DNA from: an uncultured Atopobiaceae bacterium
Lineage (GTDB): Bacteria > Actinomycetota > Coriobacteriia > Coriobacteriales > Atopobiaceae
DNA: 64,000 bases
Reading direction: 5' to 3'
Assembly: GCA_947599965.1 (NCBI GenBank)
Contig: CANQFP010000001.1
Span: forward strand, 1 to 64,000
The notes below the pieces were generated by a model. It searched no databases, was not told the origin of the DNA, and worked only from the letters and a program-made list of their open reading frames with translations. How positions within the stretch are numbered: position 1 is the stretch's first letter; each line of letters opens with the position of its first letter. The position numbers and the translations under genes are program-made. This document shows positions 2,561 through 18,150 of this stretch, piece after piece.

Positions 2561-3802
2561 TCAGAAATCCAGGGATCCCGGCACCACCGCATCCGCCTCG
2601 GCTTCGGCCTCCGTGGTCGCGAGCTCCGCGGCCGTGAAGCCGAAGAGGTAGGTCACGATCGCGCTCACCACCAGCGCGAGCACGGCCGTGGCCACGCCGA
2701 AGGCCACGTTCACGAGGCCGCCCGGCAGGTAGTTCAGGAAGACGAGGAAATTCGAGCCGCCGCCCGCGATGTAGTAGGTCACGCCGAGCAGGCACGCCGC
2801 CACGGAGCTCACGGCGCCGCCCACGAACATGCCGAGGAAGGTGCGGCGATAGCGCATGTTGATGCCGAAGAGCGTGGGCTCGGTGACGCCGCCCACCACG
2901 GCCGCCACGAGGTAGCCGAGCGATTGGGCCTTCTGGTCCTTGTCGCGCAGGCGCAGGAACGCCCCCAGCGCGCAGCCCCACACGGCAAAGGAGCAGCAGT
3001 TGGCGGCCACGAAGATGTAGGGGTCGTAGCCCACCTGGATGATCTGCACCTGCGCGAGGAGGATGATCGGCATGTGGATCTGCGCGATGACGAAGAGCTG
3101 CCAGAACGCCCCCATGAGGGCCATGAAGACGAGGATCGCGAAGCCGCCGAGGTCGGCGAGTGCGAAGAGCGCCTCTCCGATGGCCATGCCGATGAGGTTG
3201 CCGAGCGGCGCCAGCACGATGAGCACGATGGGCACGGCGATGACCATTGTCAAAAACGGCGTGAAGATGGTGGAGAGCGCGTCGGGCATCCAGCTCTTGA
3301 TCCAGCGTTCCAGCACGTAGATGAGCGGCACGGCGAGCATGATCGGCAGCACCGACTGGCTGTAGTTGGCCGCGGCGATCTCGAAGCCGTAGACGCTGAT
3401 CGTGCCGCCGCCCTCCTGCGCGGCCGCGGCGACGATGCCGGGGGAGATGAGGACGCCGCCCATGAGGGCGCCGAGCACGGGCGTGGCGCCGATCTTTCGA
3501 GCCGACGTGAAGCCGAGGTAGATGGGGATGAAGTAGAAGCACGCGTCGAAGAGGATGGTGTTGAAGAAGAGGTAGGTGGGGCTCTCCGGGCTGATGAGGT
3601 TCAGCAGATCGGGCCCCAAGACCACCGCGAAGGAGCGGAAGAGACCTCCCGCCATGATGAGCGGGATGAGCTGGATCATCGAGCCCGTGAAGAAGTCGAG
3701 CACCTTGTCCGCCGCGCGGCGCACCGGGCCCTTGGGCGTGGCGTCCTCTTCCCTCTCGGGGATCAGACCTTCGCCGACGAGGGGATTCTCGCTCTCAGCC
3801 AT
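2561..3802 (-). CDS. PTS EIIC membrane permease, glucose/beta-glucoside family, without EIIB domain
   Basis: This 413-residue hydrophobic protein is the sugar-translocating subunit of a glucose-superfamily PTS. It carries the family signatures LIPLIMAGGLF, GATPVLGALMGG and GGVTEPTLFG, the loop that contacts sugar. It is closely related to the EIIC part of the gene at 5517-6986 over its whole length, including ISVYG.EIAAANYSQSVLPIML, so the two arose by duplication. No EIIB domain is fused or adjacent, so it must borrow phosphate from the EIIB of its paralogue or serve as a variant-specificity channel. It follows the glycosidase gene by 6 bases, with GAGGA before its ATG, and is the last gene of the operon. 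A palindromic element begins 4 bases past its stop. Confidence 0.9.
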   Translation of the reverse strand: MAESENPLVGEGLIPEREEDATPKGPVRRAADKVLDFFTGSMIQLIPLIMAGGLFRSFAVVLGPDLLNLISPESPTYLFFNTILFDACFYFIPIYLGFTSARKIGATPVLGALMGGVLISPGIVAAAAQEGGGTISVYGFEIAAANYSQSVLPIMLAVPLIYVLERWIKSWMPDALSTIFTPFLTMVIAVPIVLIVLAPLGNLIGMAIGEALFALADLGGFAILVFMALMGAFWQLFVIAQIHMPIILLAQVQIIQVGYDPYIFVAANCCSFAVWGCALGAFLRLRDKDQKAQSLGYLVAAVVGGVTEPTLFGINMRYRRTFLGMFVGGAVSSVAACLLGVTYYIAGGGSNFLVFLNYLPGGLVNVAFGVATAVLALVVSAIVTYLFGFTAAELATTEAEAEADAVVPGSLDF

Positions 3803-3808
3803 GGTTCC

Positions 3809-5419
3809 TCAGGCTTTCTCCGCCACCAAGAGCCAGTCTTCTGCGCTCGGCTTCTCCGGCAGCGGCCACGCTCCCTCGATGGTAGCTTCCCACGGCTCGC
3901 CGTAGGCGCCCGTGCGGGGGTCGAACCATCGAAGGCGCCACGTACCCGCCGCAAGGCCCGCGACGGCGAGCGGCTTGCGCACCGATTCCGAGTAGTAGGC
4001 CACGAGCCTGCTCCCGTCCTCGGCGACGCTCGCGAGCGGCTTCGCGCGTCCGAGCACGGCGCTTCCCGCCTCGCCCGCATAGGGCACGAGGTGCGAGAAG
4101 TCCTGCTCCTCGTAGAAGCGCCGCATGACGCCCATCTGCGCGCCTCCGGGCGCGTCGATCGCGTCCACCCACGTCACGCGGTTTCGGTTGAAGGTGTTCG
4201 CGAGATGGCGGCTCATCGGATCGGCCTCGAATTGCGACGCGTCCCAGATGTCGTCCCAGATGCCCTGGGCTCCGTAGGTGTAGCCGGCCGCGCCGAGCTG
4301 CATCGCGGTGTAGGCCACGCGTCGGAGCATCACCGGCGTGATCTCGCGCGGGCCGTTGACCTCGAGCGACGAGCAGAGCTCGTACATGGACTCGCCCTCG
4401 ATGAAGGGCTTGGTTCCATGCGCGGCGAAGAACTCGCGATAGTCGCTCTCGGCGATGACGAAATCGCCGTGGCCGGCTTGGTTGAGCGTGAAGTCGAACC
4501 AGTCCTCGTCGTGGTAATAGCTCGCGAAGGGGCGTTCGTTGGTGTAGTGCGCCGTCTGGAGGTGGCCGTAGCCGTCGCACTCCTCGAAGACCTTCGCCAC
4601 CTCACGCCAGCGATCGATGAGCGTCTCTCGCATCTCGGGGTTGTAGCCCGCGATCTCGCCAGCGAGCGTCCACACCATGGGGTAGGCGCCGTAGCGCGCC
4701 ACGATGTAGCGCGCCGTGGCGGCCATCGCGCGCGGGCCCTCGGGCGAGAGGATCGAATCGTTCCAGGCGATGCCGAGCGCATCCACGAGGCCGGCATTTG
4801 CCACGTATGCCATGCGACGATCGAGTTCTTGCTGGTAGAAGGCCACGTTCGGCACGAGACGCTCGAGGTCGCCGTCCACCCAGTAGCGCTCCACGCCGTG
4901 GAAATCCGTGCGCAGGTTCGTCTGGTAGACCGTGAAGCCCTGCTCCACGCGGCGATCGACCATGCCACGGAACATCGAGCTCATGGCGGGGTGGTTCGAT
5001 TCGTCCCAGCGCTCACCGTAGGCGAACTCCCAGTGCGTGTCGCCCAGCCAGAAGAAGGGCGTGCCATCGGCGTAGGCGAGATGACGCCCGTCATCGGCCA
5101 CGCGGATGAAGCCGTGGCGATAGAGCGCGAGCTCACCCTCGTAGGGACGCGCCTCGAGCGAGCCCGCGAGGCCGTCGAGCGTGGGATCCTCCGCGCAGGA
5201 GGTGTGCCAGTGCCACTCCCCCGGCTCCGTGGGCGCGAAGGAGACGCGATAGACGCATCCGCCGTCCCAGTAGGCCTCGCGACGGATGACGCGCCCGGAG
5301 GGTGCCTCGAAGCGGGCCAGGAGGTGCAGATCGTCGAGCGGACGCTCGGGCGTCCACGCCGCCTCGAACGTCAAGATCTCCGGCCGCCAGCAGATGGCTC
5401 GAACGGGCTCTGCGCTCAT
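3809..5419 (-). CDS. Intracellular apiosidase-like glycoside hydrolase (DUF5060-DUF4038-Collagen_bind_2)
   Basis: A 536-residue enzyme with three regions. Residues about 5-95 form a DUF5060-type beta domain (EPGEWHWHTS). A TIM barrel of the DUF4038 family, which includes the GH140 apiosidases, starts at HGFIRV...FFWLGDTHW. The C-terminal module has WRLRWFDPRTG and ends in DWLLV. Candidate catalytic glutamates are Glu255 in TLAGE and Glu341 or Glu343 in PFIEGE. There is no signal peptide, so it acts in the cytosol. It lies between two PTS permease genes, implying that it cuts an imported, probably phosphorylated, glycoside. The ATG at 5419 is preferred because GGGGAGGAG precedes it. Apiose specificity is inferred from the family and from the transketolase operon nearby; other beta-glycosides are possible. 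Confidence 0.85.
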   Translation of the reverse strand: MSAEPVRAICWRPEILTFEAAWTPERPLDDLHLLARFEAPSGRVIRREAYWDGGCVYRVSFAPTEPGEWHWHTSCAEDPTLDGLAGSLEARPYEGELALYRHGFIRVADDGRHLAYADGTPFFWLGDTHWEFAYGERWDESNHPAMSSMFRGMVDRRVEQGFTVYQTNLRTDFHGVERYWVDGDLERLVPNVAFYQQELDRRMAYVANAGLVDALGIAWNDSILSPEGPRAMAATARYIVARYGAYPMVWTLAGEIAGYNPEMRETLIDRWREVAKVFEECDGYGHLQTAHYTNERPFASYYHDEDWFDFTLNQAGHGDFVIAESDYREFFAAHGTKPFIEGESMYELCSSLEVNGPREITPVMLRRVAYTAMQLGAAGYTYGAQGIWDDIWDASQFEADPMSRHLANTFNRNRVTWVDAIDAPGGAQMGVMRRFYEEQDFSHLVPYAGEAGSAVLGRAKPLASVAEDGSRLVAYYSESVRKPLAVAGLAAGTWRLRWFDPRTGAYGEPWEATIEGAWPLPEKPSAEDWLLVAEKA

Positions 5420-5439
5420 GGGGCGCTCCTCCCCATACA

Positions 5440-5505: not shown

Positions 5506-5516
5506 GTTTGCAAATC

Positions 5517-6986
5517 CTAATAGTCCATGGCGCCGGGCAAAACCGCATCGGCGTCGGCCTCTTCCTCGGTCGTACCGAGCTCCTCCTTCGTGAAGCCGAA
5601 CATCATGGTCACGACGGCACCCACCACGATGGAGCACGCGGCACCGATGAGCATGCAGATGAGGTTCTGCATGCCACCCTGCATGTACTGGAGGGCGATG
5701 AGGAAGTTGGTGGCGCCGCCGCCGGGATAGACGACCACGCCGAGGAGGCCGGAGAGCACGGCACCCGCGGCACCGCCGGCGAACATGCCGAGCATGGTGC
5801 GACGATAGCGGAGGATGACGCCGAAGAGGCCGGGCTCGGTGACGCCGCCGAGGACGGCAGCCACGAGGTAGCCCCAGCACAGGCTCTTCTCGTCCTTGTC
5901 ACGCAGACGAAGCGCCGCGCCGAGGACGCAGCCCCAGACCGCCCACATGGCGCAGTTCGTGGAGACGAAGATCACGGGGTCCATGCCCGCCTGGGCGAGC
6001 TGGACGATGGCGACCATGATGATCGGCATGTGCATGCCGGCCACGACGAAGAGCTGCCAGAAGGCGCCGAGGATCGCCATGACGAGGAACGTGAAGACGC
6101 CACCGATGTCGGCGATGCCGAAGAGCGCGGCGCCGATGCCGTTACCGATGAGGGCGCCGAGCGGCGCGAGGATGATGAGGGAGATCGGGACGACGATCAC
6201 CATCGTGAGGAACGGGGTGAAGATCGTGGAGAGCGCGTCGGGCATCCAGCTCTTGATCCACTTCTCGATGAAGTAGATGCACGGGACGGAGAGCATGATC
6301 GGCAGCACCGACTGGCTGTAGTTCGCAGCGGCGATTTCGATGCCGTAGACGCTGATGATCCCGCCACCCTCCTGGGCAGCAGCGGAGATGATGCCCGGGG
6401 ATATGAGGATGCCGCCCATGAGGGCGCCGAGGACGGGCGTGGCGCCGATCTTGCGGCAGGCGCAGAAGCCGAGGTAGATCGGCAGGAAGTAGAACGCCGC
6501 GTCGTACATGATGTTGTTGAAGAAGATGTACGCGGCGCTGTCCTCGGCGAGGATGTTGAGCATGGTCGGGCCGAGCACGACGGCGAAGGTGCGGAAGAGA
6601 CCGCCTGCCATCATGAGCGGGATCAGCTGGACCATGGAGCCGGAGAGGAAGTCGAGCGCGTTATCCCAAACCTTCTTCGGGGTGAGCGGCTCCTTCTCCG
6701 CGTCGCCCAGGTCCTCGTCCACGGAGCCGCCGCCGGCGACGCCCATGCCCGTGACCTCGGCGTAGACCTTCGGCACGTTCTGGCCGATGATCACCTGGAA
6801 CTGGGGGCCGGCCCACACGGCGCCGAGCACGCCCTTGACGCCCTTGACGGCGTCTTCGTCGACCAGGCTCTTGTCCTTCACGGTGAGACGAAGGCGCGTC
6901 ATGCAGTGCGTGGCGTTGCCCACGTTCTCGGGACCACCGACTGCGGCAAGGACGCCTTCGGCGATCGCTTTGTTGTCAACGGCCAT
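5517..6986 (-). CDS. PTS EIIBC, glucose/beta-glucoside family
   Basis: The 489-residue protein starts with an EIIB domain (residues 1-80). Its phosphorylated cysteine is Cys28 in NATHCMTRLRL, the classical HCxTRLR motif. A linker with GGGSVDEDLGDAEKEP leads into an EIIC membrane domain (about 110-475) with LIPLMMAGGLF, GATPVLGALMGG and GGVTEPGLFG. It takes phosphate from EIIA and phosphorylates the sugar during import. There is no fused EIIA; the stand-alone EIIA at 17556-18068 is the obvious donor. It is the first gene of its operon, with a sigma-70-like promoter and an operator-like palindrome upstream. Its EIIC part is a paralogue of the EIIC gene at 2561. Substrate is not determined by sequence; context suggests apiosyl- or rhamnosyl-glucosides. 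Confidence 0.93.
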   Translation of the reverse strand: MAVDNKAIAEGVLAAVGGPENVGNATHCMTRLRLTVKDKSLVDEDAVKGVKGVLGAVWAGPQFQVIIGQNVPKVYAEVTGMGVAGGGSVDEDLGDAEKEPLTPKKVWDNALDFLSGSMVQLIPLMMAGGLFRTFAVVLGPTMLNILAEDSAAYIFFNNIMYDAAFYFLPIYLGFCACRKIGATPVLGALMGGILISPGIISAAAQEGGGIISVYGIEIAAANYSQSVLPIMLSVPCIYFIEKWIKSWMPDALSTIFTPFLTMVIVVPISLIILAPLGALIGNGIGAALFGIADIGGVFTFLVMAILGAFWQLFVVAGMHMPIIMVAIVQLAQAGMDPVIFVSTNCAMWAVWGCVLGAALRLRDKDEKSLCWGYLVAAVLGGVTEPGLFGVILRYRRTMLGMFAGGAAGAVLSGLLGVVVYPGGGATNFLIALQYMQGGMQNLICMLIGAACSIVVGAVVTMMFGFTKEELGTTEEEADADAVLPGAMDY

Positions 6987-7040
6987 AGGGTTCCCCTCTC
7001 TCTTGGCCGATCTCTACACAAACTCATCACACGTACGAAC

Positions 7041-7089
7041 TCTATAAAGCATGGCCTTCCGAGTTGTGAAGGCCGAGATTTAGTAAATC
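7041..7089 (-). promoter_or_regulatory. Promoter and TTTAGTAAA operator of the EIIBC operon
   Basis: On the minus strand TTCACA (plus 7065-7070) and TTATAG (plus 7042-7047) are 17 bases apart and resemble -35 and -10 boxes. Just upstream, 7077-7089 is GATTTAGTAAATC, a palindrome centred on 7083. The core TTTA(G/C)TAAA recurs at 12302-12310 and 18140-18148, upstream of the other two operons, so it is a candidate shared operator. A 7-bp hairpin GGCCTTC/GAAGGCC (7053-7074) overlaps the promoter. Confidence 0.6.
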
Positions 7090-7112
7090 CTTTAATCCCC
7101 TCCTCGCGATGA

Positions 7113-7168: not shown

Positions 7169-7230
7169 GGAGATGTTCGCCCAGATTGGCCGCTCACCGA
7201 TGGAGGGGCCACCGGTTCGGCCAACCGCCA

Positions 7231-7340
7231 GCGAGGCGTTTCGGGGCGCCCGGTATGGAAAGAGCCACGGGGATTCGAAACGTCAGCGAGAAGCTTCGGG
7301 GTGCCCGGTATGGAAAGAGCCACAGGGATTCGAAACGTCA
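7231..7340 (-). repeat. Tandem 55-bp direct repeats
   Basis: Two adjacent 55-base units (7231-7285 and 7286-7340) share the core GGTATGGAAAGAGCCAC and GATTCGAAACGTCAGCGAG. Each begins with a version of the outer left arm of the palindromic element, and the full element at 7345 continues the series as a third start. Unit 1 has the GGCGTTTCGGGGCGCC form of the arm. Unit 2 has AAGCTTCGGGGTGCC, the form used by the element copy at 18297. The sequence around 18283-18310 also matches a unit junction. This looks like an array of partial element copies. Confidence 0.75.
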
Positions 7341-7344
7341 GCGA

Positions 7345-7447
7345 GGCGTTTCGGGGCGCCCGAGATGCGGGTGATTTTGCGGCCGTAGCGCAACTTCGCT
7401 ACTCGAGGCCGCAAAATCGCGCGCAGATCGGGTGCATCCGGGACGCC
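7345..7447 (-). repeat. Structured palindromic repeat, copy 2 (3' of the FGGY kinase gene)
   Basis: The outer arms are 7345-7363 and 7428-7447; the apical hairpin 7374-7417 has stem ATTTTGCGGCC/GGCCGCAAAAT around GTAGCG-CAACTT-CGCTAC. It begins 6 bases beyond the kinase stop codon. It is nearly identical to the copy at 2455 except in the left arm, where GGCGTC...GGTGCCC becomes GGCGTT...GGCGCCC, and in the bases between arm and apical stem. Confidence 0.8.
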
Positions 7448-7453
7448 GCAGCG

Positions 7454-8953
7454 TCATTGCCGATGCATGGTTTGGTAGAGCGCCGATTCCCACCTGGCCA
7501 GCCGCTCCTCGCGCTCGCCCTCGCCCATCTTCGGCTCGTAGACGGTGCGCTCGATGGCGTCGTAGATGGCGTTGCCGCGATAGACGCCGGCCTTGGAGCC
7601 GGCCACGTAGGCCACGCCGCCCGCCGAGAGCTCGGCCAGGCTCGAGACCACGACCGTCACCCGGGCGAGATCGGCTTGGAGCTGCATGAGGTAGGCGTTA
7701 TGGGAGGGCCCGCCGTCGGCGCGGAGCTCCGCCACCGGGAAGCCGCTGTCGGCGCGCATGCCGAGCACGAGCGAGGTGTCTTGCAGGCAGATGCTGTCGA
7801 CGACCGCCTTCACCATCTCGTTTCTGCCGGTCGTGCGCGTCACGCCCGTGAGGAGGCCCGTCGCGTCGCCGTCCCACCAGGGTGCACCGAGCCCGGTGAA
7901 GGCCGGCACGAAGACGGCGCGATCCCTCGGGTTCGCCTTGGCGCAGATCTCCTCGGTCTCGCCCGGCTCGTGGATGAGCTTCATGTCGTCGATGAGCCAG
8001 GTGATGACGGCGCCGGAGTAGTTGATGTTGCCCTCGAGGATGTAGGAGACCTTGCCGCCGAAGTCCCAGGCGATGGAGCTCACGAGCCCGCTTCGGCTCT
8101 GGATGAGCCGATCGCCCGTCTGGAGCACCACCGAGGAACCCGTGCCGTAGGTGGCCTTGAGCTCGCCCGCGTCGAGGCAGTTCTGCGCCGCGAGCGCCGC
8201 CTGGGAATCGCCGAGGACGCCGCAGACGGGGATGGGATCGTCGAAGAGCCCGCCCATGGTGGTGGTGCCGAAGACGCTGTCGGAGTGCACGACCTCGCCG
8301 AGCGCCTCGATGGGCAGGCCGAAGAAGTCGCAGAGCTCTCGGCTCCACGCCACCTCGCGAAGGTCGAGGAGCTGGGTGCGGCACGCGTTCGAGGGCTCCG
8401 TCTTGAAGGGATGCTCGCGGCAGAGCTTGAAGCAGAGCCAGGAGTCGATCGTGCCGAGGGCGAGCGTGCCGCGCTCGGCGGCGTCGGCCACGGGCGGGAT
8501 GTTCTCGAGGAGCCACGCCATCTTCGAGGCGGAGAAGTAGGGCGAGAGCTCGAGCCCCGAGAGCTCGCGGACGCGCTCCACCTCCCCCGCCTTCTCGGCG
8601 GCGAGCCGGGCGCAGAGCTCCTGGGCTCGGCCGTCCTGCCAGACGATGGCGTTCGCGAGGGCCTGGCGCGTCTCCTTGTCCCAGGCGAGGCAGGTCTCGC
8701 GCTGGTTCGAGAGGCCGATGCAGGCCACCTCCCCGTCGAGGACGCCCGCCTGGGTGCAGGCGTCGCGCGCCACGGCGAGCACGTTGGTGACGATCTCCTC
8801 GGGGTCGTGGGAGACCCAGCCCCGATCGTTCACGATCTGGCGGTGCGGTCGGGAGGTCTTCACCACCGCGCGGCCGAACTTGTCGAAGAGGACCGCCTTG
8901 GTCCCCTGGGTGGACTGGTCGATGGCGAGGACGAAGGGCGCGTTCTCGTGCAT
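7454..8953 (-). CDS. FGGY-family carbohydrate kinase, candidate D-apulose kinase
   Basis: The 499-residue protein is a full FGGY kinase: an N-terminal ATPase core motif AIDQSTQGTKAVLFD, then NQRETCLAWD, TYGTGSSVV and FVPAFTGLGAPWWDGDATGL, and near the C-terminus ADGGPSHNAYLMQ. Its closest look is to glycerol kinase, but glycerol kinases read AIDQGTTSSR in the first motif, so another substrate is likely. It is the last gene after an isomerase and two transketolase halves. In characterised apiose pathways an FGGY kinase makes D-apulose 4-phosphate, which a split transketolase uses, and this operon fits that scheme. GAGGAGG precedes the ATG. Substrate is inferred from context. Confidence 0.85.
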   Translation of the reverse strand: MHENAPFVLAIDQSTQGTKAVLFDKFGRAVVKTSRPHRQIVNDRGWVSHDPEEIVTNVLAVARDACTQAGVLDGEVACIGLSNQRETCLAWDKETRQALANAIVWQDGRAQELCARLAAEKAGEVERVRELSGLELSPYFSASKMAWLLENIPPVADAAERGTLALGTIDSWLCFKLCREHPFKTEPSNACRTQLLDLREVAWSRELCDFFGLPIEALGEVVHSDSVFGTTTMGGLFDDPIPVCGVLGDSQAALAAQNCLDAGELKATYGTGSSVVLQTGDRLIQSRSGLVSSIAWDFGGKVSYILEGNINYSGAVITWLIDDMKLIHEPGETEEICAKANPRDRAVFVPAFTGLGAPWWDGDATGLLTGVTRTTGRNEMVKAVVDSICLQDTSLVLGMRADSGFPVAELRADGGPSHNAYLMQLQADLARVTVVVSSLAELSAGGVAYVAGSKAGVYRGNAIYDAIERTVYEPKMGEGEREERLARWESALYQTMHRQ

Positions 8954-8980: not shown

Positions 8981-9919
8981 CTAGGCCTTGGCCAAGAGCT
9001 CCCCGGCGCTCTTCGCGATGCCGGCGGCGTCGAGGCCGTAGCGCTCGAAGATCTGGGCCTTCGTGCCCGTCTTCACGGGGGCGTCCGGCAGCGCGAGGGT
9101 CTTCACCGGGCGGGGGCACGTCTCCCCCACCACCTGGGCCACCATGGAACCGAGCCCGCCGAAGGGCGCGGCCTCCTCGGCTGTGAGCACGACCTTCGCA
9201 CCGCGGGCGGCCCGGAGCACGGCCTCCACGTCGAGGGGCTTCACGCAGTACATGTCCACGACCGTGGTGGAGACGCCCTCGGCCTCGAGGGCCTTCGCGG
9301 CCTCCAGGCACGCGTGCACGAGCTCGCCCGTGGCGATGAGGGCCACGTCGGAGCCCTCGCGGAGCACGTTCGCATGGTCGAGCTCGAAGGGGCAGTCGTC
9401 GTCGGCGTAGACGTCGGGCACCACGGAGCGGCCCACGCGCACGTAGGCGCACTTCTCGTCGTCGAGCAGGGCGTTCATGAGCTTGCGCGTCTGGTGCTGG
9501 TCGCTCGGCAGGTAGACCCGCATGTTGGGCACGGCGGCGAGCGCCGCGATGTCCTGGGCGCTCTGGTGCGTCATGCCGAGCTCGCCGTAGGAGACGCCGC
9601 CGGAGATGCCCACGAGGGTGACGTTGGTGTCGGAGTAGGCGCAGTCCACGCGCGCCTGCTCAAAGGAGCGCGTGGCGAGGAAGCTCGCCGGCGAGACGGC
9701 GACGGCCTTCTTGCCGCAGCGCGCGAGGCCGGCGGCCATGCCCACGAGATCCTGCTCGGCGATGCCGACCTCCACGGCCTGCTCGGGGTAGGTCTCGTAG
9801 AAGGGGTCGAGTGCGGCCGACCCGCGCGAATCGGAGCAGAGCACCACGATGTCGCGATCGCTTGCGGCTCGCTTCATGAGCACGTCCGCGATGACGGCGC
9901 GGTTCGCGAGATTAGCCAT
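8981..9919 (-). CDS. Transketolase C-terminal half, candidate apulose-4-phosphate transketolase subunit B
   Basis: The 312-residue protein matches the pyrimidine-binding and C-terminal domains of transketolase. It has VEVGIAEQDLVGMAAGLA, which holds the glutamate that activates thiamine diphosphate, and a C-terminal domain with LIATGELVHACLEAA. It works only as a complex with the N-terminal half encoded just upstream. The ATG at 9919 overlaps the end of that gene by 8 bases and uses a GAGGAGG site inside it, so the halves are made in step. Split transketolases occur in pentose pathways; the pairing with a dedicated kinase and a glycosidase of the apiosidase family points to apulose 4-phosphate plus glyceraldehyde 3-phosphate giving xylulose 5-phosphate and dihydroxyacetone phosphate. 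Confidence 0.9.
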   Translation of the reverse strand: MANLANRAVIADVLMKRAASDRDIVVLCSDSRGSAALDPFYETYPEQAVEVGIAEQDLVGMAAGLARCGKKAVAVSPASFLATRSFEQARVDCAYSDTNVTLVGISGGVSYGELGMTHQSAQDIAALAAVPNMRVYLPSDQHQTRKLMNALLDDEKCAYVRVGRSVVPDVYADDDCPFELDHANVLREGSDVALIATGELVHACLEAAKALEAEGVSTTVVDMYCVKPLDVEAVLRAARGAKVVLTAEEAAPFGGLGSMVAQVVGETCPRPVKTLALPDAPVKTGTKAQIFERYGLDAAGIAKSAGELLAKA

Positions 9920-10763: not shown

Positions 10764-12182
10764 TCACTCTCCCCTCAGATAGGCCTTGACCTCTTCCTCG
10801 ATGGGATCGTAGAGGTCGGGCATGATGCCGAGATACTTTCCGCAGGCCTCGTAGAGGATCGGCACGACGTTGCCGTGGATCGCCGTGCAGTGGTGGATGT
10901 AGGGACCCTCGACGATCTTGGCCTCGAGGCGCTTGATGTTCGCCACCTTGATCCAGAGGTAGGTTCCCTTGCCCATCGGCCCGTCGATGCCCTCGGCGTT
11001 GCCGAGGAGCAAGGAATACCGTCCGTGGTCGCCGTCGAAGCGGGCGATGGTGAGCTCGCCGTGCTTGGCCTCGGCGGTGACGGCGCCGTTGTAGTTGAAG
11101 GCGAGCGGCAGCGTCACCTTCGGACGCTCGCAGGCAACCGAGCAGGGCCAGGGGCCGCAGTGCTGCAGGAGCTCGCCGTTGGGCTCGTCGGGGTGGCGGA
11201 TCGTCCAGTCGGCGAAGAAGGAGCGCTTCTCGTTCATGGCCGCAGCCTCCACGAGGAGCGAGGTGATGGAGCCGTGCACGTCCGTCTCGCAGGAGATGGG
11301 GAAGCCCTCCTCGTTCAAGATCGAGTTCGCCGCGCAGGGCATGATGCCGAGCTCGTGCTGGAGCTCGTTCCAGCACTGGATGCAGCCGGCCGTGCAGTGG
11401 TAGGCCTCGAGCATGCGGCGCATGGCCACCGCCATGCCGGCCACGGTCTCGAGCTGCTCCTCGGAGCAGTTGATGTCGTAGCGCTCGCGGATCCAGGCGA
11501 TCTGCCTCTCGATGGCGGATCCGCCGTCGCCCGTGGCCTCGCCCTTGGCCTCGGCCACGGCGCGCGTGAGCTCGGGCAGGGGCACGGGCACGCATTCGAT
11601 GTTGAAGCGCTCGAGGAGCTCGCCCTCGTTGCACATGGTGGAGTAGAACTCGTAGGGCCTGGGGCCGATCTGGAGGATGCGCGCCTCGCGGAAGACCTTC
11701 ACGACGTTGCAGACGGCGAGGAAGTCGCGCAGGCCGCGCTCGAAGACGGGGTCGTCCACCCGGCAGTTCGTCATGTAGGTGAAGGGGACGTTGAAGCGGC
11801 GGAGCACCTTGCCCGTGGCGAAGAGGCCGCACTGGCTGTCACGCGGACGCGTGCCGTCGGGCTCGGGGCGCTCGTCGAGCGGGCCCCAGAGGAGCACCGG
11901 CACGTCGAGATCCTTGGCGAGGCGGGCGCACATGAACTCCGTGCCGAAGTTGCAGTGGGGCAGGAAGAGGCCGTCGACGTGCTCGGCCCTGAACTTCTCG
12001 AGGATCTTCAGGCGATCCTCCTCGCAGAAGAGGAGGCCCTCCTCGTTGACGTCGTCGATGTCGACGTAATCGATGCCGAGCTCGTCGAGCTTGTCGGCGA
12101 TGATGCCGCGATACTTGCGCGCATCGGGCGCCGAGAAGATGCTGCGGCGCGTCGGAGCGTATCCCAGGCGAATCGTTGCCAC
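10764..12182 (-). CDS. L-fucose/L-arabinose isomerase-family protein, candidate apiose isomerase
   Basis: This 472-residue protein has the length and outline of the FucI/AraA-fold ketol isomerases. It has an N-terminal Rossmann-like region (LFLPHCNFGTEFMCARLAKD), a middle region (CTAGCIQCWNELQHELGIMPC) and a C-terminal sugar-binding part with conserved histidines (GPYIHHCTAIHG). The family converts aldoses to ketoses with manganese held by Glu, Asp and His. It is unusually cysteine-rich. It is the first gene of the kinase-transketolase operon, so its product should be the ketose that the kinase phosphorylates. If the pathway is for apiose, this would be the apiose-to-apulose isomerase. The start is GTG at 12182, with GGAGGAAAGGGG upstream. 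Family assignment is good; substrate is inference. Confidence 0.75.
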   Translation of the reverse strand: MATIRLGYAPTRRSIFSAPDARKYRGIIADKLDELGIDYVDIDDVNEEGLLFCEEDRLKILEKFRAEHVDGLFLPHCNFGTEFMCARLAKDLDVPVLLWGPLDERPEPDGTRPRDSQCGLFATGKVLRRFNVPFTYMTNCRVDDPVFERGLRDFLAVCNVVKVFREARILQIGPRPYEFYSTMCNEGELLERFNIECVPVPLPELTRAVAEAKGEATGDGGSAIERQIAWIRERYDINCSEEQLETVAGMAVAMRRMLEAYHCTAGCIQCWNELQHELGIMPCAANSILNEEGFPISCETDVHGSITSLLVEAAAMNEKRSFFADWTIRHPDEPNGELLQHCGPWPCSVACERPKVTLPLAFNYNGAVTAEAKHGELTIARFDGDHGRYSLLLGNAEGIDGPMGKGTYLWIKVANIKRLEAKIVEGPYIHHCTAIHGNVVPILYEACGKYLGIMPDLYDPIEEEVKAYLRGE

Positions 12183-12232: not shown

Positions 12233-12345
12233 GGCCGTTTACCACGAGTTTTCCTGAAGAGATTGTAGAGTCGGCCGCTCGGCGCCGATCACGGTTCGCC
12301 TTTTACTAAACTTTAGATCCTAAATTGAGCATCGTTTTAGAAACG
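12233..12345. promoter_or_regulatory. Divergent control region between the isomerase operon and the LacI gene
   Basis: This AT-rich stretch holds three palindromes within 45 bases: TTTACTAAA (12302-12310), TTTAGATCCTAAA (12312-12324) and CGTTTTAGAAACG (12333-12345). The first is the inverse of the TTTAGTAAA site found upstream of the other two operons. A TACAAT box on the minus strand (plus 12262-12267) is a likely -10 for the isomerase operon, and CCGTTTACC (12234-12242) is a half-site downstream of it. Control by the adjacent LacI-family protein of itself and of the operon is the natural reading. Confidence 0.6.
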
Positions 12346-12395: not shown

Positions 12396-13472
12396 ATGAA
12401 GGTCACCGCGCGCGACGTGGCACGGGAGGCCGGGGTCTCCCCGGCCACCGTCTCTTTGGTGTTCCAGCAAAAGCCCGGCGTCTCGCGATCGACGCGCGAG
12501 CGCGTCTTCGAGGTGGCCGCCCGTCTCGGCTACGTCTACGAGGCGCGCACCGCCGATCGGGCCACCTCCACGATCCTCTTCGTCATGTACAAGAAGCACG
12601 GTCAGGTGGTCTACGAGACGCCCTTCTTCGAGGAGCTTTTGAAGGGCGTCACCGACGCCACCTACCGCCACGGCTATCACAAGCTCGCGGTTTCCTATTT
12701 CTACGGCCGCGAGAGCGCCTACGAGCAGATGAAGTCCGTGCAGTCGGTGCGCTGCGCGGGGCTCGTGCTCCTCGCCACCGAGGCCATGGCCACCGACATC
12801 GCCCAGTTCGAACGCCTCGGCGTGCCGATCGTGCTTCTGGACAGTTGGTTTCCCACCAAGAGCCTCGACAGCGTCATCATCGACAACACGCGCGGTGCCT
12901 ACGACGCGGTGCGCTACCTCATTTCCAAGGGCCATTCCGACATCGGCTACCTGCACTGCGGCGTCTCGATCCGCAACTTCCTCGAGCGCCAGAGCGGCTT
13001 CTCGAGCGCCATGCGCGAGATCGCCCCGCGCACCGACAAGCTCCCGCCGATCGTGCGCGTGGGCTCCACCTTCGAGGATTCCTACGCCGACATGAGCGCC
13101 TACCTCGACGCCGGCATCGAGCTGCCCACGGCCTACTTCGCCGACAACGACATCATCGCCTACGGCTGCATCAAGGCCCTCACCGACCACGGCTACCGCG
13201 TGCCCGCAGACGTCTCCGTCATCGGTTTCGACGACATGGTGTTTCCCGAGGTCATGGTGCCCAGACTCACGACGATGGCCGTGCCCAAGGACGCCATGGG
13301 CGAGCTCGCGGTGAAGCGCCTCGCCGACCTCATCAAGGGCGAGACGAACGGCGAGACCATCCGCCTCGCCGTCCAGACCAAGGTGGTCGAGCGCGACAGC
13401 GTGCTCGACCTGCGCGCGGGCGGCGCGCCCGAACCGAGCACCCACCCCTCGGCGAGAGAGAGCGAGAGATGA
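12396..13472 (+). CDS. LacI-family transcriptional regulator
   Basis: The 358-residue protein has an N-terminal helix-turn-helix with hinge (KVTARDVAREAGVSPATVSL, residues 2-21) and a periplasmic-binding-protein-like effector domain (ILFVMYKKH onward, with VSVIGFDDMVFPEVMVPRLT near residue 285). The ATG at 12396 is preferred over a TTG 39 bases upstream because GGAG precedes it and LacI proteins begin here. It reads divergently from the isomerase operon and shares ATGA with the HPr gene. CcpA-type LacI proteins use phospho-Ser46 HPr as corepressor; whether this one contacts its coupled HPr is an open question raised by the arrangement. Effector is likely a sugar or sugar phosphate of the locus. 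Confidence 0.9.
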   Translation: MKVTARDVAREAGVSPATVSLVFQQKPGVSRSTRERVFEVAARLGYVYEARTADRATSTILFVMYKKHGQVVYETPFFEELLKGVTDATYRHGYHKLAVSYFYGRESAYEQMKSVQSVRCAGLVLLATEAMATDIAQFERLGVPIVLLDSWFPTKSLDSVIIDNTRGAYDAVRYLISKGHSDIGYLHCGVSIRNFLERQSGFSSAMREIAPRTDKLPPIVRVGSTFEDSYADMSAYLDAGIELPTAYFADNDIIAYGCIKALTDHGYRVPADVSVIGFDDMVFPEVMVPRLTTMAVPKDAMGELAVKRLADLIKGETNGETIRLAVQTKVVERDSVLDLRAGGAPEPSTHPSARESER

Positions 13473-13726
13473 TCCAGAACGTATGCACCCTAAAGGATCC
13501 CGCCGGCCTGCACGCGCGCCTGGCGGCGCGCATCGCCGAGGCGGCACGGGGCTGCGAGAGCTCTCTCTCGATCTCCTTCAAGGGGATCGAGGCGAAGGCC
13601 ACCGACATCCTCGGCCTCATGCAGATCGACGCGAACGAGAACGACCTGCTCCTCGTGGTCTCGGACGGACCAGACGAGGATCACGCGCTCTCCCAGGTTC
13701 GAAGCATCATCGAGACCGTGGGCTAG
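13469..13726 (+). CDS. HPr-like phosphocarrier with Asp at position 46
   Basis: The 85-residue protein aligns without gaps to HPr. The phosphorylated histidine is His15 in AGLHARLAA. It should carry phosphate from enzyme I (not in this window) to the EIIA at 17556-18068. Two positions are odd. Ser46, the HPr-kinase target in Firmicutes, is Asp (KATDILGL), and Pro18 after HAR is Leu. Asp46 is the change commonly engineered to imitate phospho-Ser46. The gene starts at ATG 13469, overlapping the LacI-family stop as ATGA, so both are made together. It may be a dedicated HPr for this sugar system or the cell's only HPr; the window does not say. Confidence 0.9.
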   Translation: MIQNVCTLKDPAGLHARLAARIAEAARGCESSLSISFKGIEAKATDILGLMQIDANENDLLLVVSDGPDEDHALSQVRSIIETVG

Positions 13727-13731
13727 CGCGG

Positions 13732-13750
13732 CGCAATCCCGGGGATTGCG
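13732..13750. terminator. Hairpin between convergent HPr and rhaD genes
   Basis: A perfect 8-bp stem CGCAATCC/GGATTGCG with loop CGG fills the 27-base gap between the two stop codons. It reads the same in both directions, so it may end both transcripts. No T-run follows on either side, so efficiency is uncertain. Confidence 0.6.
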
Positions 13751-13753
13751 AGG

Positions 13754-14572
13754 CTACGCGAGATCGAGATAGCCCTCGCGCGGCGTCACGTGGAACCAGT
13801 CGGCGATCTCGCGGAGCTCGTCGTCGGTGATGGTCTGCAGGATGGGCATCTGCGCGATCTTGAGGTAGATCTCGGCGGCCTTCTCGGCGGTCTCGATGAG
13901 CCCGAAGGTCTCGTCCAAATCTGCGCCGGCTCCGTAGATGCCGTGTTGGCCCCACACCACGAGCCGCGAACGCCTCATCTTCTCGGCCGTGGCCTCGCCG
14001 ATCTCGTTCGTGCCGCAGAGCATCCACGGCAACACGCCGATGCCGTCGGGGAAGACGATCATGCATTCGGTGCACATCTGCCAGAGCGTCCGGGTGAAGG
14101 CGCGCTCGTCGAGATCGTGGACGAAGGTCATCGCCAGCAAGTTGGCCGGATGGCAGTGCATGATCACGCGATTCGCCGGGTTCTCGGCGAGGCGCACGGC
14201 GTGGCTCATGAGGTGCGCGGGGAGCTCCGAGGTGAATGAGCCGCCGTCGGCGTAGCCCCAGAGGAGCTCGGCGGTGCGGCCGCTGTCCGTCACGCGGATG
14301 ACACCGAGGTTGTTCTCGGGATCGTACTGCACGTTCTTGAAGTACTTGCCGGTTCCCGTCACGAGGAAACAGCGGCCGTCGAGCGTCGGCGCATCGAAGC
14401 CCGTGGGAATGGAGCGCAGGGGATGGGAGACGTCGAGGTAGCGCGCGAGCTCCTCCTCGTCCACGAGCAGGCTGATGTTGCCGCCGTTTCGCTCGTCCCA
14501 TCCGTGGTCGTACATGTTGGTGGTGGTGCGGATGAGCTCGACCATGAAGGGCGCGTCGAGGATGGTTTCCAT
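13754..14572 (-). CDS. rhaD: Rhamnulose-1-phosphate aldolase
   Basis: At 272 residues it matches RhaD of E. coli (274) in length and motifs. It is a class II aldolase that splits L-rhamnulose 1-phosphate into dihydroxyacetone phosphate and L-lactaldehyde using zinc. Visible are GWDERNGGNISLLVDE near the N-terminus, FLVTGTGKYFKNVQ, the zinc pair in RVIMHCHPANLLAM, and VVWGQHGIYGAG with the third zinc histidine. It is the last gene of the EIIA-kinase-isomerase-aldolase operon, 10 bases after the isomerase. No lactaldehyde reductase or dehydrogenase is nearby, so lactaldehyde must be handled elsewhere. Confidence 0.95.
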   Translation of the reverse strand: METILDAPFMVELIRTTTNMYDHGWDERNGGNISLLVDEEELARYLDVSHPLRSIPTGFDAPTLDGRCFLVTGTGKYFKNVQYDPENNLGVIRVTDSGRTAELLWGYADGGSFTSELPAHLMSHAVRLAENPANRVIMHCHPANLLAMTFVHDLDERAFTRTLWQMCTECMIVFPDGIGVLPWMLCGTNEIGEATAEKMRRSRLVVWGQHGIYGAGADLDETFGLIETAEKAAEIYLKIAQMPILQTITDDELREIADWFHVTPREGYLDLA

Positions 14573-14582
14573 GAGGGCTCCC

Positions 14583-16001
14583 CTATCTCGTGACGATCGT
14601 GACCGGGACGTCGAAGATCTTCGCGACCTTCAGAATGGTATCGATATGGCGGCCGGAGGCGGCGGCCATGTGGTGCGTGGGGCCGGCTTCGCTCCACCGA
14701 TCGCAGAACGCGCGTGCGCCGCAGGAGAAGCGCGTGCGCATGTTCGTGTCGCCGAAGGTGAAGATGGGTCCGGGCTCGTTCACGCCCTCGGCCACCACGA
14801 ACGCGAAGTGCCCGTCGGCGTCCTGCGTGATGGCGAGGTAGGTCACGGGCCCGAGGTGCGGATAGAACTGGGTGAGGTAGCCGCCGCCGGTCTTGCCGTG
14901 GAAGACGGGCACGATCCTCATGGTCGGCTTCTCGGCCGAGATGTCCGCGTCGCCCGAGCCGGAGTGGCCGATGATGCAGATGTCCTCGTCGAAATCGATG
15001 GAGTACATCTCGGAGAGCTGCCCCGTGCCGGCGATGGTCTTCAAGATCCCCATCGCCATGGCCACCTTGATGTCACCTTCCACGGCGCAGGCCACGCCCT
15101 GCTTGATGAGCATGGAGAAGGCCGGGATGAGCATGGAATCGAGGATGCCCGCCTTACCTTGGGCGTAGCCGTCGTAGTGGGAGGCCACGAAGCCGAGCCG
15201 CTCCTCGCGCACCCAGGCCTCGAACGCCACCACGTAGCGCGCCATCTCCCAGACGGTCTCGACCGTGGCGCCGCCCTCGATGTCGAAGGTGGCGAGGATC
15301 TCCTCGGCCTTCGCGCGAATGGCCGCCTCGTCGGTGACGTCGTCGGCGATGGCCCAGAGCCTCTCCCAGTCGAACTGCTTGGTGTAGAGCCCCATGCGAT
15401 GGTAGAGGTTCGTCTCGTCGATGTAGAGATCCATCATGCCGGGGTAGGGCCGACCGATCTGGGCGAGGTTGAGCGAGCGGAAGCGCCGGCGCACCTGCGC
15501 CGCACGGCACCAATCCTCGATCTGGGCCCACGCCTCGGGATCTCCGCCCTCCTGGACGCCGGTGATGACGGCGTGGCGTTTGCCGGCACGCTCGAGGTCG
15601 GCCACCATCTCGCCCACCGCGCCGCATGCGTAGAGCTCCCCCAGCCAGGTGGCCGTGTCGGTGTGCTCGTAGTCGGGCGCCCGGAGCTTCTGGAGGTTCA
15701 CGAGCACCACCGGCACGTCGAGGTCGCGCACGGCCGGCAGCAGGTTGTAGCTCGTGGCGTAGGTGAGGAGCTGGCAGATCACGAGGTCCACGTCGGCGGC
15801 GCGGAAGGCCTCTCCCGCGGCCATGGCGAGCTCCTTGGTGGTGACGAGCCCGCCGTCCACGACGTCGACCGTGCCCGGCATCTGCGCGAGGAAGCTCGCG
15901 TACTGGGTACGGAACTCGCCCTCCAAGCTCGGAAACTGCGGAAGATACGCCCCGAGGGCGATGGAGAAGACGCCGACCTTGGCCCGGGTGTCGATGAGCA
16001 C
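14583..16001 (-). CDS. L-arabinose/L-fucose isomerase-family protein, candidate rhamnose isomerase substitute
   Basis: The 472-residue protein resembles AraA-like isomerases: LVICQLLTYATSYNLLPAV, VPVVLVNLQKLRAPDYEHT, then AVEGDIKVAMAMGILKTIAG and FHGKTGGGYLTQFYPHLGPV. It sits between rhamnulokinase and rhamnulose-1-phosphate aldolase, exactly where RhaA is expected. It does not resemble RhaA, a xylose-isomerase-like TIM barrel. It is therefore a likely non-homologous replacement that makes L-rhamnulose. I take the GTG at 16001, with AAGGGAGG seven bases upstream, over a longer frame to 16043. It is only distantly similar to the isomerase at 10764, despite equal length. Confidence 0.8.
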   Translation of the reverse strand: MLIDTRAKVGVFSIALGAYLPQFPSLEGEFRTQYASFLAQMPGTVDVVDGGLVTTKELAMAAGEAFRAADVDLVICQLLTYATSYNLLPAVRDLDVPVVLVNLQKLRAPDYEHTDTATWLGELYACGAVGEMVADLERAGKRHAVITGVQEGGDPEAWAQIEDWCRAAQVRRRFRSLNLAQIGRPYPGMMDLYIDETNLYHRMGLYTKQFDWERLWAIADDVTDEAAIRAKAEEILATFDIEGGATVETVWEMARYVVAFEAWVREERLGFVASHYDGYAQGKAGILDSMLIPAFSMLIKQGVACAVEGDIKVAMAMGILKTIAGTGQLSEMYSIDFDEDICIIGHSGSGDADISAEKPTMRIVPVFHGKTGGGYLTQFYPHLGPVTYLAITQDADGHFAFVVAEGVNEPGPIFTFGDTNMRTRFSCGARAFCDRWSEAGPTHHMAAASGRHIDTILKVAKIFDVPVTIVTR

Positions 16002-16049
16002 GATGGATCCTCCCTTTGGTCGATCGAAGCGTGCGGAGCGCAACGCGCG

Positions 16050-17540
16050 CTATTCGGGGTCGAAGCGCACGAGCTCGAACGAGTTCGCGATGATGCGTCG
16101 GGCGATGGCGAGGTTCGGGATGCTCCCGGCCGAGATCATCTGCACGACGAGGTTGCCGGCGCTCGTGGCCTCCACCGGTCCGGCGATGACGGGCTTGCCG
16201 CAGGCGTTGGCCGTGATCTGGTTGAGATGGCCGTCCTGCGATCCGCCGCCCACGATGGAGATGGCCCCGTAGCTCGCGTGCGTGATGGCCTCGATGCCCG
16301 CCACCGCGCGCTCGTAGGCGCTCCCGAGGCTGCGATAGATGCAGGTCATGAGCTCGCCCACCGTCGTCGGCAGCGGCTCGTTCGCCCCCGCGCACCAAGC
16401 GCAGACGGCCTCCATCATGGAGTGGGGCGCGAGGAATGCGTCGTCGTCCACGTCCACGAGGGAGGAAAAGTCCGGGGTCTCCACGGCGCAGGCGATGAGG
16501 TCCTCGAAGCCCACGGCCCGGTCGAGCCCGAGCGGCGCGATGGCGCCCGAGAGGGGTCGCGCGGCCTCCTCGCGACCGCTCACGTAGGAGACGCCGTTCA
16601 GCTCGCGGCGCACGGACTGGATCATCCAGAGCCCCATGATGTTCTTGAGGAAGCGGTAGGTTTTCGCGAAGCCGCCCTCGTTCGTGTAGTTGCCGTCGCG
16701 CGCGGCAGCGCTGAGCTCGGGTTCCCCTCGCTCGACGCCGAGCAGGCTCCACGTTCCCGAGGAGAGGATGATCGAGTTGCGCTCCGTCGCGGCGAGGTAG
16801 GCCGAGCCCGTATCGTGCGAGGCCACGAGCACGACGTTCGTGTCGTAGCCGATGCGCTCGGCGACCTTCGTCGTCACCTTGCCGAGGACGCGCCCTGGGA
16901 AGGAGAGCTCGCCGAAGAGCGCGCGCGGAATGCCGTAGGCGTCGAGGAGCCCCTCGTCCCAGGTCCTCGAGCGCGCGTTCACGAGCCCCGTCGTCGTGGC
17001 GTTCGTGTACTCCTGCGCCTTCACGCCCGTGAGGAGAAAGCCGAGGTAGTCGGGGACCATGAGGAGCGCTCGGGCCTCTGCGAACGCGTCCGGCGTCTCG
17101 CGTCTTTGGGCCAGGAGCTGGTAGACGGTGTTGATGGGGTTTCGTTGGATGCCGGTTCTCGCCCAGGCCACGCGCGGAGGCACGAGCGCGTCGGCGACGG
17201 CGAACATGCCGTCGGTGCGCAGATCGCGGTAGGCCACCACGTCGCCGATCAGGCGATCCTCGGCGTCGAGGAGCGCGTAGTCCACGCCCCAACTGTCGAT
17301 GGCCACGCTCGCGGGCTCGAAGCCGTGCTCCCTGCACAGGGCGAGCCCCTCGAGGATCTCCTCGAAGAGCTCGTCGATCTTCCAGCAATCGTGGCCCGCG
17401 GTGCGCCGCTGGCCGTTCTCGAAGCGATGGATCTCCTCCGAACGCAGGAGATCGTCGTGCTCGAGCCAGCCCACGACGACGCGACCGCTCGACGCGCCGA
17501 GGTCGATGGCGGCATGGCAGTGCCTGCGCATCTTCCCCAT
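16050..17540 (-). CDS. rhaB: Rhamnulokinase
   Basis: The 496-residue FGGY kinase has the RhaB-type first motif AAIDLGASSGRVVVGW, then DSWGVDYALLD, NPINTVYQLL, SHDTGSAYLA, ILSSGTWSLLG and IVGGGSQDGHLNQITANACG. It phosphorylates L-rhamnulose to L-rhamnulose 1-phosphate. It follows the EIIA gene by 15 bases and precedes the isomerase by 48. Two ATGs three codons apart (17540, 17531) are possible starts; neither has a strong ribosome site, so coupling to the EIIA gene is likely. The need for a free-sugar kinase shows that rhamnose is not phosphorylated by the PTS itself but released inside the cell. Confidence 0.95.
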   Translation of the reverse strand: MGKMRRHCHAAIDLGASSGRVVVGWLEHDDLLRSEEIHRFENGQRRTAGHDCWKIDELFEEILEGLALCREHGFEPASVAIDSWGVDYALLDAEDRLIGDVVAYRDLRTDGMFAVADALVPPRVAWARTGIQRNPINTVYQLLAQRRETPDAFAEARALLMVPDYLGFLLTGVKAQEYTNATTTGLVNARSRTWDEGLLDAYGIPRALFGELSFPGRVLGKVTTKVAERIGYDTNVVLVASHDTGSAYLAATERNSIILSSGTWSLLGVERGEPELSAAARDGNYTNEGGFAKTYRFLKNIMGLWMIQSVRRELNGVSYVSGREEAARPLSGAIAPLGLDRAVGFEDLIACAVETPDFSSLVDVDDDAFLAPHSMMEAVCAWCAGANEPLPTTVGELMTCIYRSLGSAYERAVAGIEAITHASYGAISIVGGGSQDGHLNQITANACGKPVIAGPVEATSAGNLVVQMISAGSIPNLAIARRIIANSFELVRFDPE

Positions 17541-17555
17541 GGCGCGACGCCCGGG

Positions 17556-18068
17556 CTAGCTGACGGTGATGACCGGCTGGCCGGCCTTCACGGGCTGCGG
17601 GTCGATGGAGTTCACGGAATCGTACTCGGCGGTGTTGGAGATGAGGACCATGACGTCGTCGGGGTGCCCGGCCTTCTTGATCTTGGCGCGGTCGAAGGTG
17701 ACGAGCGGCTGGCCGGCCTTCACCTTCTCATCCTGCTTGACGTACATCTGGAAGCCCTCGCCCTTCATCTGGACGGTGTCCACGCCGATGTGGATGAGGA
17801 CCTCGACGCCGTCATCGGAGAGCAGGCCGACGCCGTGGCCGGAGCCCATGGTGGCGGAGACGGTGCCGTTGAAGGGAGCGTAGGCCACCGAGCCGGAGGG
17901 CTTGATGACGATGCCCTGGCCGAGGATGCCCTGGGCGAAGACGGGATCCGGGGCCTCGGAAAGCGCGACGGCCTCACCGTCGACGGGCGCGAGCACGGTC
18001 TTGGGCGCCGGCGTGCAGGCGATCGGCTCGGGCTTGGACGGCTTCTTGAACTTATCGAAGAGACCCAT
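17556..18068 (-). CDS. crr: PTS EIIA, glucose family
   Basis: The 170-residue soluble protein is an EIIA-Glc domain: an unstructured start with MGLFDKFKK, then VLAPVDGEAVALSEAPDPVFA and FAQGILGQG. The active-site histidine is in EVLIHIGVDTVQMKGEGF. It accepts phosphate from HPr and gives it to EIIB. No EIIB or EIIC is fused to it, so it is the natural partner of the EIIBC at 5517-6986 and the EIIC at 2561-3802, which lack EIIA. It leads the rhamnose operon, which ties that operon to the PTS operon. AAGGA precedes the ATG. Confidence 0.93.
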   Translation of the reverse strand: MGLFDKFKKPSKPEPIACTPAPKTVLAPVDGEAVALSEAPDPVFAQGILGQGIVIKPSGSVAYAPFNGTVSATMGSGHGVGLLSDDGVEVLIHIGVDTVQMKGEGFQMYVKQDEKVKAGQPLVTFDRAKIKKAGHPDDVMVLISNTAEYDSVNSIDPQPVKAGQPVITVS

Positions 18069-18138
18069 GGGATTCCTTTCGTCGGGGTATTTTCTGTTTT
18101 GTACTGCGCAACCTCGGCACCCCCCACTCCGTGGCCAC

Positions 18139-18150
18139 GTTTAGTAAATC
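18139..18150. promoter_or_regulatory. Operator-like site upstream of the EIIA-rhamnose operon
   Basis: GTTTAGTAAATC shares its ten-base core GTTTAGTAAA with the reverse complement of 12302-12311, and its last eleven bases match the palindrome at 7077-7089. It lies 71-82 bases before the EIIA start. No convincing -10/-35 pair is visible between it and the gene. The remaining 340-base gap (18069-18408) also holds element copy 3; the stretch 18151-18280 shows nothing else I can name. Confidence 0.55.

Follow-up and report, generated by a model that had tools for sequence, protein, structure and literature searches.

Which sugars are handled by the phosphotransferase system (PTS) encoded near the start of contig CANQFP010000001.1 of an uncultured Atopobiaceae bacterium (GenBank assembly GCA_947599965.1), and do the operons around it work as one system? 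The window, which is the first 64,000 nucleotides (nt) of this contig and has a G+C content of 67%, carries three minus-strand operons and one divergent pair between positions 2561 and 18068. The operons read EIIBC-glycosidase-EIIC (6986-2561), isomerase-transketolase N-transketolase C-FGGY kinase (12182-7454), and EIIA-RhaB-isomerase-RhaD (18068-13754), and the plus-strand pair is lacI-HPr (12399-13726). A sequence-only reading had proposed that they form one regulon joining apiose-type and rhamnose catabolism to a PTS, and all the genes it listed were confirmed in the stated orientation and are backed by family profile matches. Apiose, a pentose with a branched carbon chain, occurs in many plant glycosides and in the pectin rhamnogalacturonan II (RG-II). 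The explanation that we favour, with moderate confidence, is that the locus encodes a LacI-controlled, PTS-coupled variant of the transketolase route for D-apiose, the substrates and reactions being deduced from the genes.

That the operons form a single regulon under one LacI is strongly supported by a shared, rare operator. Inspection of the intergenic DNA revealed a short palindrome before each operon. The sequence GTTTAGTAAA has three copies in the genome of 1,431,216 bases, and the 9-mer TTTA(G/C)TAAA (TTTASTAAA) has exactly four sites genome-wide, against 0.48 expected from base composition and no match for a reversed-pattern control. The candidate operators lie before the EIIBC operon (7079-7087), between the first isomerase and lacI (12302-12310), before the EIIA-rhaB operon (18140-18148), and, on another contig of the same genome, before a PF07632 gene (C49:256). 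The regulator (12399-13472, plus strand; PF00356 and PF13377) adjoins the second of these sites and presumably binds all of them; its orthologue stands beside the cassette in related genera. For comparison, named genomes were scanned with an isomerase profile; of at least 526 relatives in 595 stretches, the 80 best were kept, and two loci from plasmid records, in Monoglobus pectinilyticus (L026) and Listeria monocytogenes (L027), brought the number compared to 82. Of 14 coriobacterial loci, 11 have the operator upstream of isomerase 1 (L043, L044, and L045 are without it there), and no operator site occurs anywhere in L016 or L017. In L042 it additionally precedes a GH1 (glycoside hydrolase family 1) gene, EIIBC, and a PF07632 gene, and the related genome G013 has five sites of this type, four of them inside the cluster; the fifth (C3:428) has no relevant gene downstream and was taken as chance. 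A scan for sigma-70 promoters found none against 1.5 expected.

The four genes transcribed away from lacI resemble the enterobacterial genes for D-apiose use (apt). Isomerase 1 (10764-12182), the proposed D-apiose isomerase, aligned with the isomerase of the enterobacterial apt cluster at an hhalign probability of 99.9% (E 6e-33, 29% over 436 columns), a far better match than with FucI, AraA, or isomerase 2 of the rhamnose operon. The comparison isomerases adjoin AptA/AptB/AplK homologues in Klebsiella, Rahnella, and Sodalis records, and we infer from this position in the cluster that they are ApsI. The structural model of isomerase 1 (predicted local distance difference test, pLDDT, 84) has the L-arabinose/L-fucose isomerase (AraA/FucI) fold, with Z 30.5 to AraA and 10.4 for the next unrelated fold; Foldseek/VIA structure lists are taken here and below as evidence of shared fold only. 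As an orthologue of FucI or AraA the protein was rejected (profile matches of E 0.026 and 0.029), though the fold is theirs. Neither isomerase of the locus reaches the cut-off of any curated family, and both have weak Fucose_iso_C/Arabinose_Iso_C matches. The N-terminal transketolase half (9912-10757) is AptA-like, with 45% identity to E. coli SE15 AptA over 244 amino acids (aa), and the C-terminal half (8981-9922) is AptB-like, with 39% identity over 293 aa.

The cassette is conserved well beyond this genome. Both transketolase halves and the kinase accompany the isomerase in all 70 of the compared loci that have at least 4.5 kb downstream. The kept relatives belong to the Atopobiaceae and other Coriobacteriia, Clostridia, Selenomonadaceae, and Megasphaera; the gene set was found in other Coriobacteriia, where the sequence-only reading had suggested looking, and also in Clostridia, Negativicutes, and Listeria. 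Six long stretches around the glycosidase gene (L013-L018) all carry isomerase 1, both transketolase halves, LacI, and EIIBC, and five of them the kinase; the sixth contig stops within the transketolase. Among 140 genomes of the family, 25 have isomerase 1, 17 have a PF13204 protein, and 15 have both, so that PF13204 is present in 15 of the 25 genomes with isomerase 1 vs 2 of the 115 without (p 7e-12). Genomes within one genus are not independent in this statistic; counted by genus, PF13204 occurs in 9/13 with isomerase 1 vs 0/22 without (p 1e-5). Both genomes that break the pattern, G011 and G012, come from the same genus as the window, and in each the contig breaks off inside the cluster. 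In G011 (L010/L021), a piece of the glycosidase lies at the end of a contig, is interrupted by in-frame stops, and may be a pseudogene.

The FGGY kinase (7454-8953), the proposed apulose kinase, bears on the order of reactions. Its best curated score is to glycerol kinase (TIGR01311, 520 bits vs a cut-off of 590), as is that of E. coli AplK (495 bits). The GlpK residues Gln246 and Phe270 contact glycerol. At these two positions, all 72 cassette kinases (the window and 71 loci) have Ser and Ser, as do four of four AplK proteins and one rhizobial apt-like kinase; the GlpK controls have Gln at the first in 8/8 and Phe at the second in 7/8, with one Val. The same sugar could in principle be degraded in another order, in which the transketolase uses unphosphorylated apulose and frees dihydroxyacetone, and the kinase is a dihydroxyacetone kinase. 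The GlpK-like score and the retained GlpK residues R83, E84, W103, Y135, and D245 would suit this order, and transketolases acting on unphosphorylated 6-deoxy-6-sulfofructose have been described, but the Ser/Ser signature points to a substrate larger than glycerol or dihydroxyacetone, and we regard this order as highly improbable beside one in which apulose is phosphorylated first. The cassette kinase was rejected as the cell's own GlpK: a separate kinase of the genome has the GDQQ/GTGCF motifs and groups with E. coli GlpK. A kinase tree has long branches, with AplK, GlpK, and the Listeria kinase falling together at low support, and leaves kinship unsettled.

Does the cassette act on apiose at all? 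It might instead degrade a different sugar of plant glycosides, such as another ketopentose, a branched hexose, or a hexose substituted at position 6, and the family names would then have pointed wrongly to apiose. Isomerases of the AraA/FucI fold, like FGGY kinases and transketolases, serve many sugars, we found no cassette enzyme of tested activity, and among curated families isomerase 1 scores best as sulfoquinovose isomerase SftI, an assignment rejected at 96 bits vs a cut-off of 700. Several further observations weigh against apiose. Identities to the apt enzymes are only 29-45%; the window kinase is no nearer AplK (37%) than GlpKs (33-40%), and at the position of GlpK Y135 it has kept Tyr, in contrast to the Leu of AplK; split transketolases of rhizobia are 46-49% identical to AptA and thus as close to it as those of the window. 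In addition, 319 plasmid records match AptA, whose closeness alone is not discriminating, and homology and co-occurrence are no proof of substrate. On the other side stand the match of all four core proteins to the apt set, the kinase Ser/Ser signature, and the near-exclusive pairing with PF13204 within the family. These bear out the apiose-type cassette of the sequence-only reading, and we judge a different sugar improbable. Because the identities are modest and apt-like transketolases abound in rhizobia, we infer, and go no further than that, that apiose is the most likely sugar.

The glycosidase (3809-5419, minus strand) consists of an N-terminal DUF5060 domain and a PF13204 (Apiosidase-like) catalytic domain (207 bits, cut-off 26.5), and at E ≤1e-20 it occurs in 9 of the 140 genomes. 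Its N-terminus, judged by eye, has no signal peptide, in agreement with the cytosolic location claimed for it. By sequence it matches the apiosidase 8t9w with 83 bits. The structural model (pLDDT 84) gave Z 31.7 to 4n0r, 29.8 to the GH5 mannanase ManDH5, 28.9 to the GH140 enzyme 8t9w (25% identity), and 28.2 to BT_1012. An alignment of 21 rows shows the nucleophile, Glu344 of the 537-aa query, to be invariant; the acid/base position is Glu in the window and three close relatives (LAGE) and in clostridial DUF5060 proteins (LANE), and Asp in the shorter enzymes (SGD, or GGD in L091). In GH140 enzymes, Asp serves as acid/base and Glu as nucleophile. Two points speak against an apiosidase: the GH5 mannanase fits the model as well as GH140 does, and Glu stands at the acid/base position where GH140 enzymes have Asp. 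The catalytic domain and the nucleophile agree with the GH140/DUF4038 link drawn by the sequence-only reading; because of the replaced acid/base residue, we call the enzyme GH140-like, a putative apiosidase, and do not file it as GH140.

The fourth operator, a perfect palindrome of 13 nt (CGTTTACTAAACG), extends the regulon past the window, where it precedes a gene for an Sde182-like, nucleoside-hydrolase-like protein (C49:351-1772 of the same genome, G000; PF07632/PF21027, DUF1593). The operator pointed to a regulon member, and relatives confirm the membership: the PF07632 family has members within the clusters of two other genera (L014, L015) and immediately after the kinase in two metagenome-assembled genomes (L034, L035). 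PF07632 is enriched in genomes with isomerase 1 and not exclusive to them (14/25 vs 16/115 without, p 2e-5). The sole solved structure that matches the protein by sequence is 2yhg, a cellulose-binding protein. Since nucleoside hydrolases cleave ribofuranosides and the apiose of plant glycosides is in the furanose form, it is a fair idea that the Sde182-like protein may act as a furanosidase. On plasmid pSRC2 of Selenomonas ruminantium, a gene row comprises an alpha-L-rhamnosidase, a metallo-beta-lactamase-type (MBL) protein, a beta-glucoside PTS IIABC, a DUF1593 protein, and GH1. The genes downstream on C49 (TruA-like, a permease, and an aldo/keto reductase, assigned by eye) include none for sugar release.

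The transport genes belong to the glucose/beta-glucoside PTS families, with matches to PF00367 (EIIB), PF02378 (EIIC), and PF00358 (EIIA). EIIBC (5517-6986, minus strand) scores 352 bits on TIGR01995, under the cut-off for a full IIABC; the second EIIC (2561-3802, minus strand; PF02378 85.8 bits) is without EIIB and has a same-genus orthologue of 92% identity. EIIA (17556-18068, minus strand; PF00358 159 bits) opens the rhamnose operon, and the only other PF00358 match of the genome lies inside an open frame of 658 aa at another place. The EIIBC operon thus lacks an EIIA gene. The sequence-only reading, which had the PTS parts spread over mutually dependent operons, holds to that extent. The HPr-like phosphocarrier (13469-13726, plus strand; PF00381 61.8 bits, over the cut-off of TIGR01003) has Asp (TDILGLM) at the canonical regulatory Ser position, and two relatives likewise have no Ser there.

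What this PTS carries can be approached through the relatives. Near the cassette, 13 of the 82 loci have a PTS, 23 a ribose-type ATP-binding cassette (ABC) importer, and none both; among the 45 loci with 5 kb on either side, the counts are 8 PTS and 14 ABC. A PF13204-type glycosidase is near 10/13 PTS loci, 1/23 ABC loci, and 13/46 others (PTS vs ABC p 1e-5), and GH1 is near 8/13, 1/23, and 1/46, respectively. This pattern fits the import of free sugar by ABC loci and of glycosides by PTS loci. The cargo may come from flavonoid sugars or from RG-II; the GH1 genes that adjoin the PTS in relatives favour glucosides. Two results count against a PTS-borne glucoside: 46 of the 82 loci, and 23 of the 45 with both flanks, have neither transporter nearby, and no GH1 or rhamnosidase gene follows any of the four operators in this genome, the three GH1 genes of which lie elsewhere and have no operator.

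How does the rhamnose operon belong here? RhaD (13754-14572) exceeds the TIGR02624 cut-off (414.6 vs 401 bits), and RhaB (16050-17540) scores 492 bits on TIGR02627, under the cut-off of 528, and groups with E. coli RhaB in a tree. RhaA (PF06134) had no match in this 96% complete genome, in a search for RhaA alone in which the control matched 3/14. Isomerase 2 (14583-16001; weak PF11762/PF02952), which is AraA/FucI-like, is proposed to replace it. In Deinococcus sp. QL22, a homologue of 34.5% identity adjoins rhamnose ABC genes and a gene for L-rhamnose mutarotase; the homologues of rhizobia carry the label arabinose isomerase and lie in a different gene context. RhaB/RhaD and isomerase 2 accompany the cassette in the genus of the window (L021, L032). 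In one Megasphaera (L057), the cassette stands beside RhaB, a true RhaA (PF06134, 669 bits), and RhaD, with transporters of the major facilitator superfamily type, and is a second lineage joining both sugars.

The operon could also be a mere neighbour that serves free rhamnose and is unrelated to the glycoside, with EIIA and regulator shared through rearrangement in the genus. RhaB/RhaD were found near the cassette in only 2 of the 82 loci (L032 and L057, the search being confined to the neighbourhood of the cassette) and were absent from the five long stretches that belong to other genera, and therefore are not part of the core, which detracts from a joint pathway. Yet the operon carries the same operator, its first gene is the EIIA that the PTS needs, it has no transporter of its own, and the Megasphaera cassette adjoins RhaB, RhaA, and RhaD; we consider a chance neighbourhood unlikely, while granting it some weight. 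The joining of rhamnose to the apiose regulon thus stands for this genus by operator and EIIA, and fails as a feature of the core. Because the sole transport gene of the operon is a PTS EIIA, one of two in the genome, the arrangement suggests that rhamnose arrives within the PTS glycoside.

Under the PTS-coupled apiose route, one LacI-type repressor would control the whole gene set. The beta-glucoside-type PTS, composed of EIIBC, the second EIIC, and the EIIA of the rhamnose operon, would import and phosphorylate an apiose-bearing glucoside, in this genus possibly also a rhamnose-bearing one. The cytosolic PF13204 glycosidase would cut it inside the cell, probably with the co-regulated Sde182-like hydrolase. 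Apiose would be converted to apulose by isomerase 1 and then phosphorylated by the AplK-like kinase, and the two-part transketolase would use glyceraldehyde-3-phosphate to turn phosphorylated apulose into dihydroxyacetone phosphate and xylulose-5-phosphate, following the scheme of the described transketolase apiose pathway. Freed rhamnose would pass through the AraA/FucI-like isomerase, RhaB, and RhaD.

Several gene neighbourhoods of relatives add detail. A phosphoketolase lies beside the cluster in L016, by sequence in L017, and with its start in L018, and likely marks the fate of xylulose-5-phosphate; the same three stretches have a second LacI and a second PF13204 enzyme. In Monoglobus pectinilyticus, which is named for pectin, the cassette comes with a DUF5060 glycosidase, followed by an SGNH hydrolase and then a large immunoglobulin (Ig)-like protein and an S-layer homology protein. 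L014 encodes a 916-aa protein (15010-17760) that has no Pfam or NCBIfam match and a 475-aa, weakly prolyl-oligopeptidase-like protein (13566-14993) of a family common to several clusters, which stands behind an operator in L042. In the window, intergenic repeats lie at 7223-7387, 7356-7435, 2460-2477, and 18319-18376; they comprise three direct copies of 55 nt, an inverted repeat with 29-nt arms, and related hairpins at other gene ends.

Taken jointly, a wider proposal remains tentative, with less than an even chance: a widespread gut PTS imports intact apiosyl-beta-glucosides (here also rhamnose-bearing ones), a non-GH140 PF13204 enzyme and an Sde182-like furanosidase free the apiose, which enters the transketolase route, isomerase 2 is a third L-rhamnose isomerase, and the Listeria genes lmo1030-1036 are the same system. 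If so, many gut Clostridia and Coriobacteriia as well as Listeria would take up apiose-bearing glucosides whole, and testable functions would follow for the orphan Listeria operon, the PF13204 branch, the Sde182-like (DUF1593) proteins, and the possible third L-rhamnose isomerase.

Among known systems, the L-rhamnose pathway of RhaA, RhaB, and RhaD shares RhaD and a RhaB-type kinase with the window; PMC3870299 describes two types of L-rhamnose isomerase, RhaA and RhaI, and, measured against these, the window has in place of RhaA an AraA/FucI-like isomerase outside both types. Beta-glucoside PTSs with a GH1 6-phospho-beta-glucosidase share the EIIB, EIIC, and EIIA families, and in relatives GH1 adjoins the PTS; the window differs in having two EIICs, an EIIA in the rhamnose operon, and a PF13204 glycosidase where GH1 stands. 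The GH140 apiosidases (BT_1012, 8t9w) share the PF13204 catalytic domain, the fold (Z 28-29), and the nucleophile Glu with the window glycosidase, which in turn has a DUF5060 domain, Glu in place of the acid/base Asp, and 22-25% identity to them. The operon of Listeria monocytogenes (L027), LacI-isomerase-transketolase N-C-kinase-PTS IIBCA-DUF4038, has seven functions as in the window and an isomerase of 62% identity; it differs in its single IIBCA gene, its short GH140-like enzyme, and the absence of adjoining rhamnose genes. By gene order, it is lmo1030-lmo1036, which PMC2996996 lists as a disparately distributed cluster; the available portions of PMC8190317, PMC8079631, and PMC10580955 name its PTS and give no sugar. 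The D-apiose pathway of Pectobacterium and Escherichia (ApsI, AplK, AptA, AptB) has an isomerase, an FGGY kinase, and a two-part transketolase homologous to those of the window. The enterobacterial apt clusters examined have a ribose-type ABC importer and no glycosidase, whereas the window has a PTS, an intracellular glycosidase, and a LacI regulator. PMC13001218 names aplK, aptA, and aptB in E. coli SE15 and reports that strains with the E. coli apiose cluster, which is without apsI, grow on apiose; this cluster is the closest system with growth data. In the open-access papers searched, no PTS route for apiosides turned up, in line with the sequence-only reading, which knew of none. The transketolase apiose route is already known, and what would be new here is its proposed PTS-coupled form.

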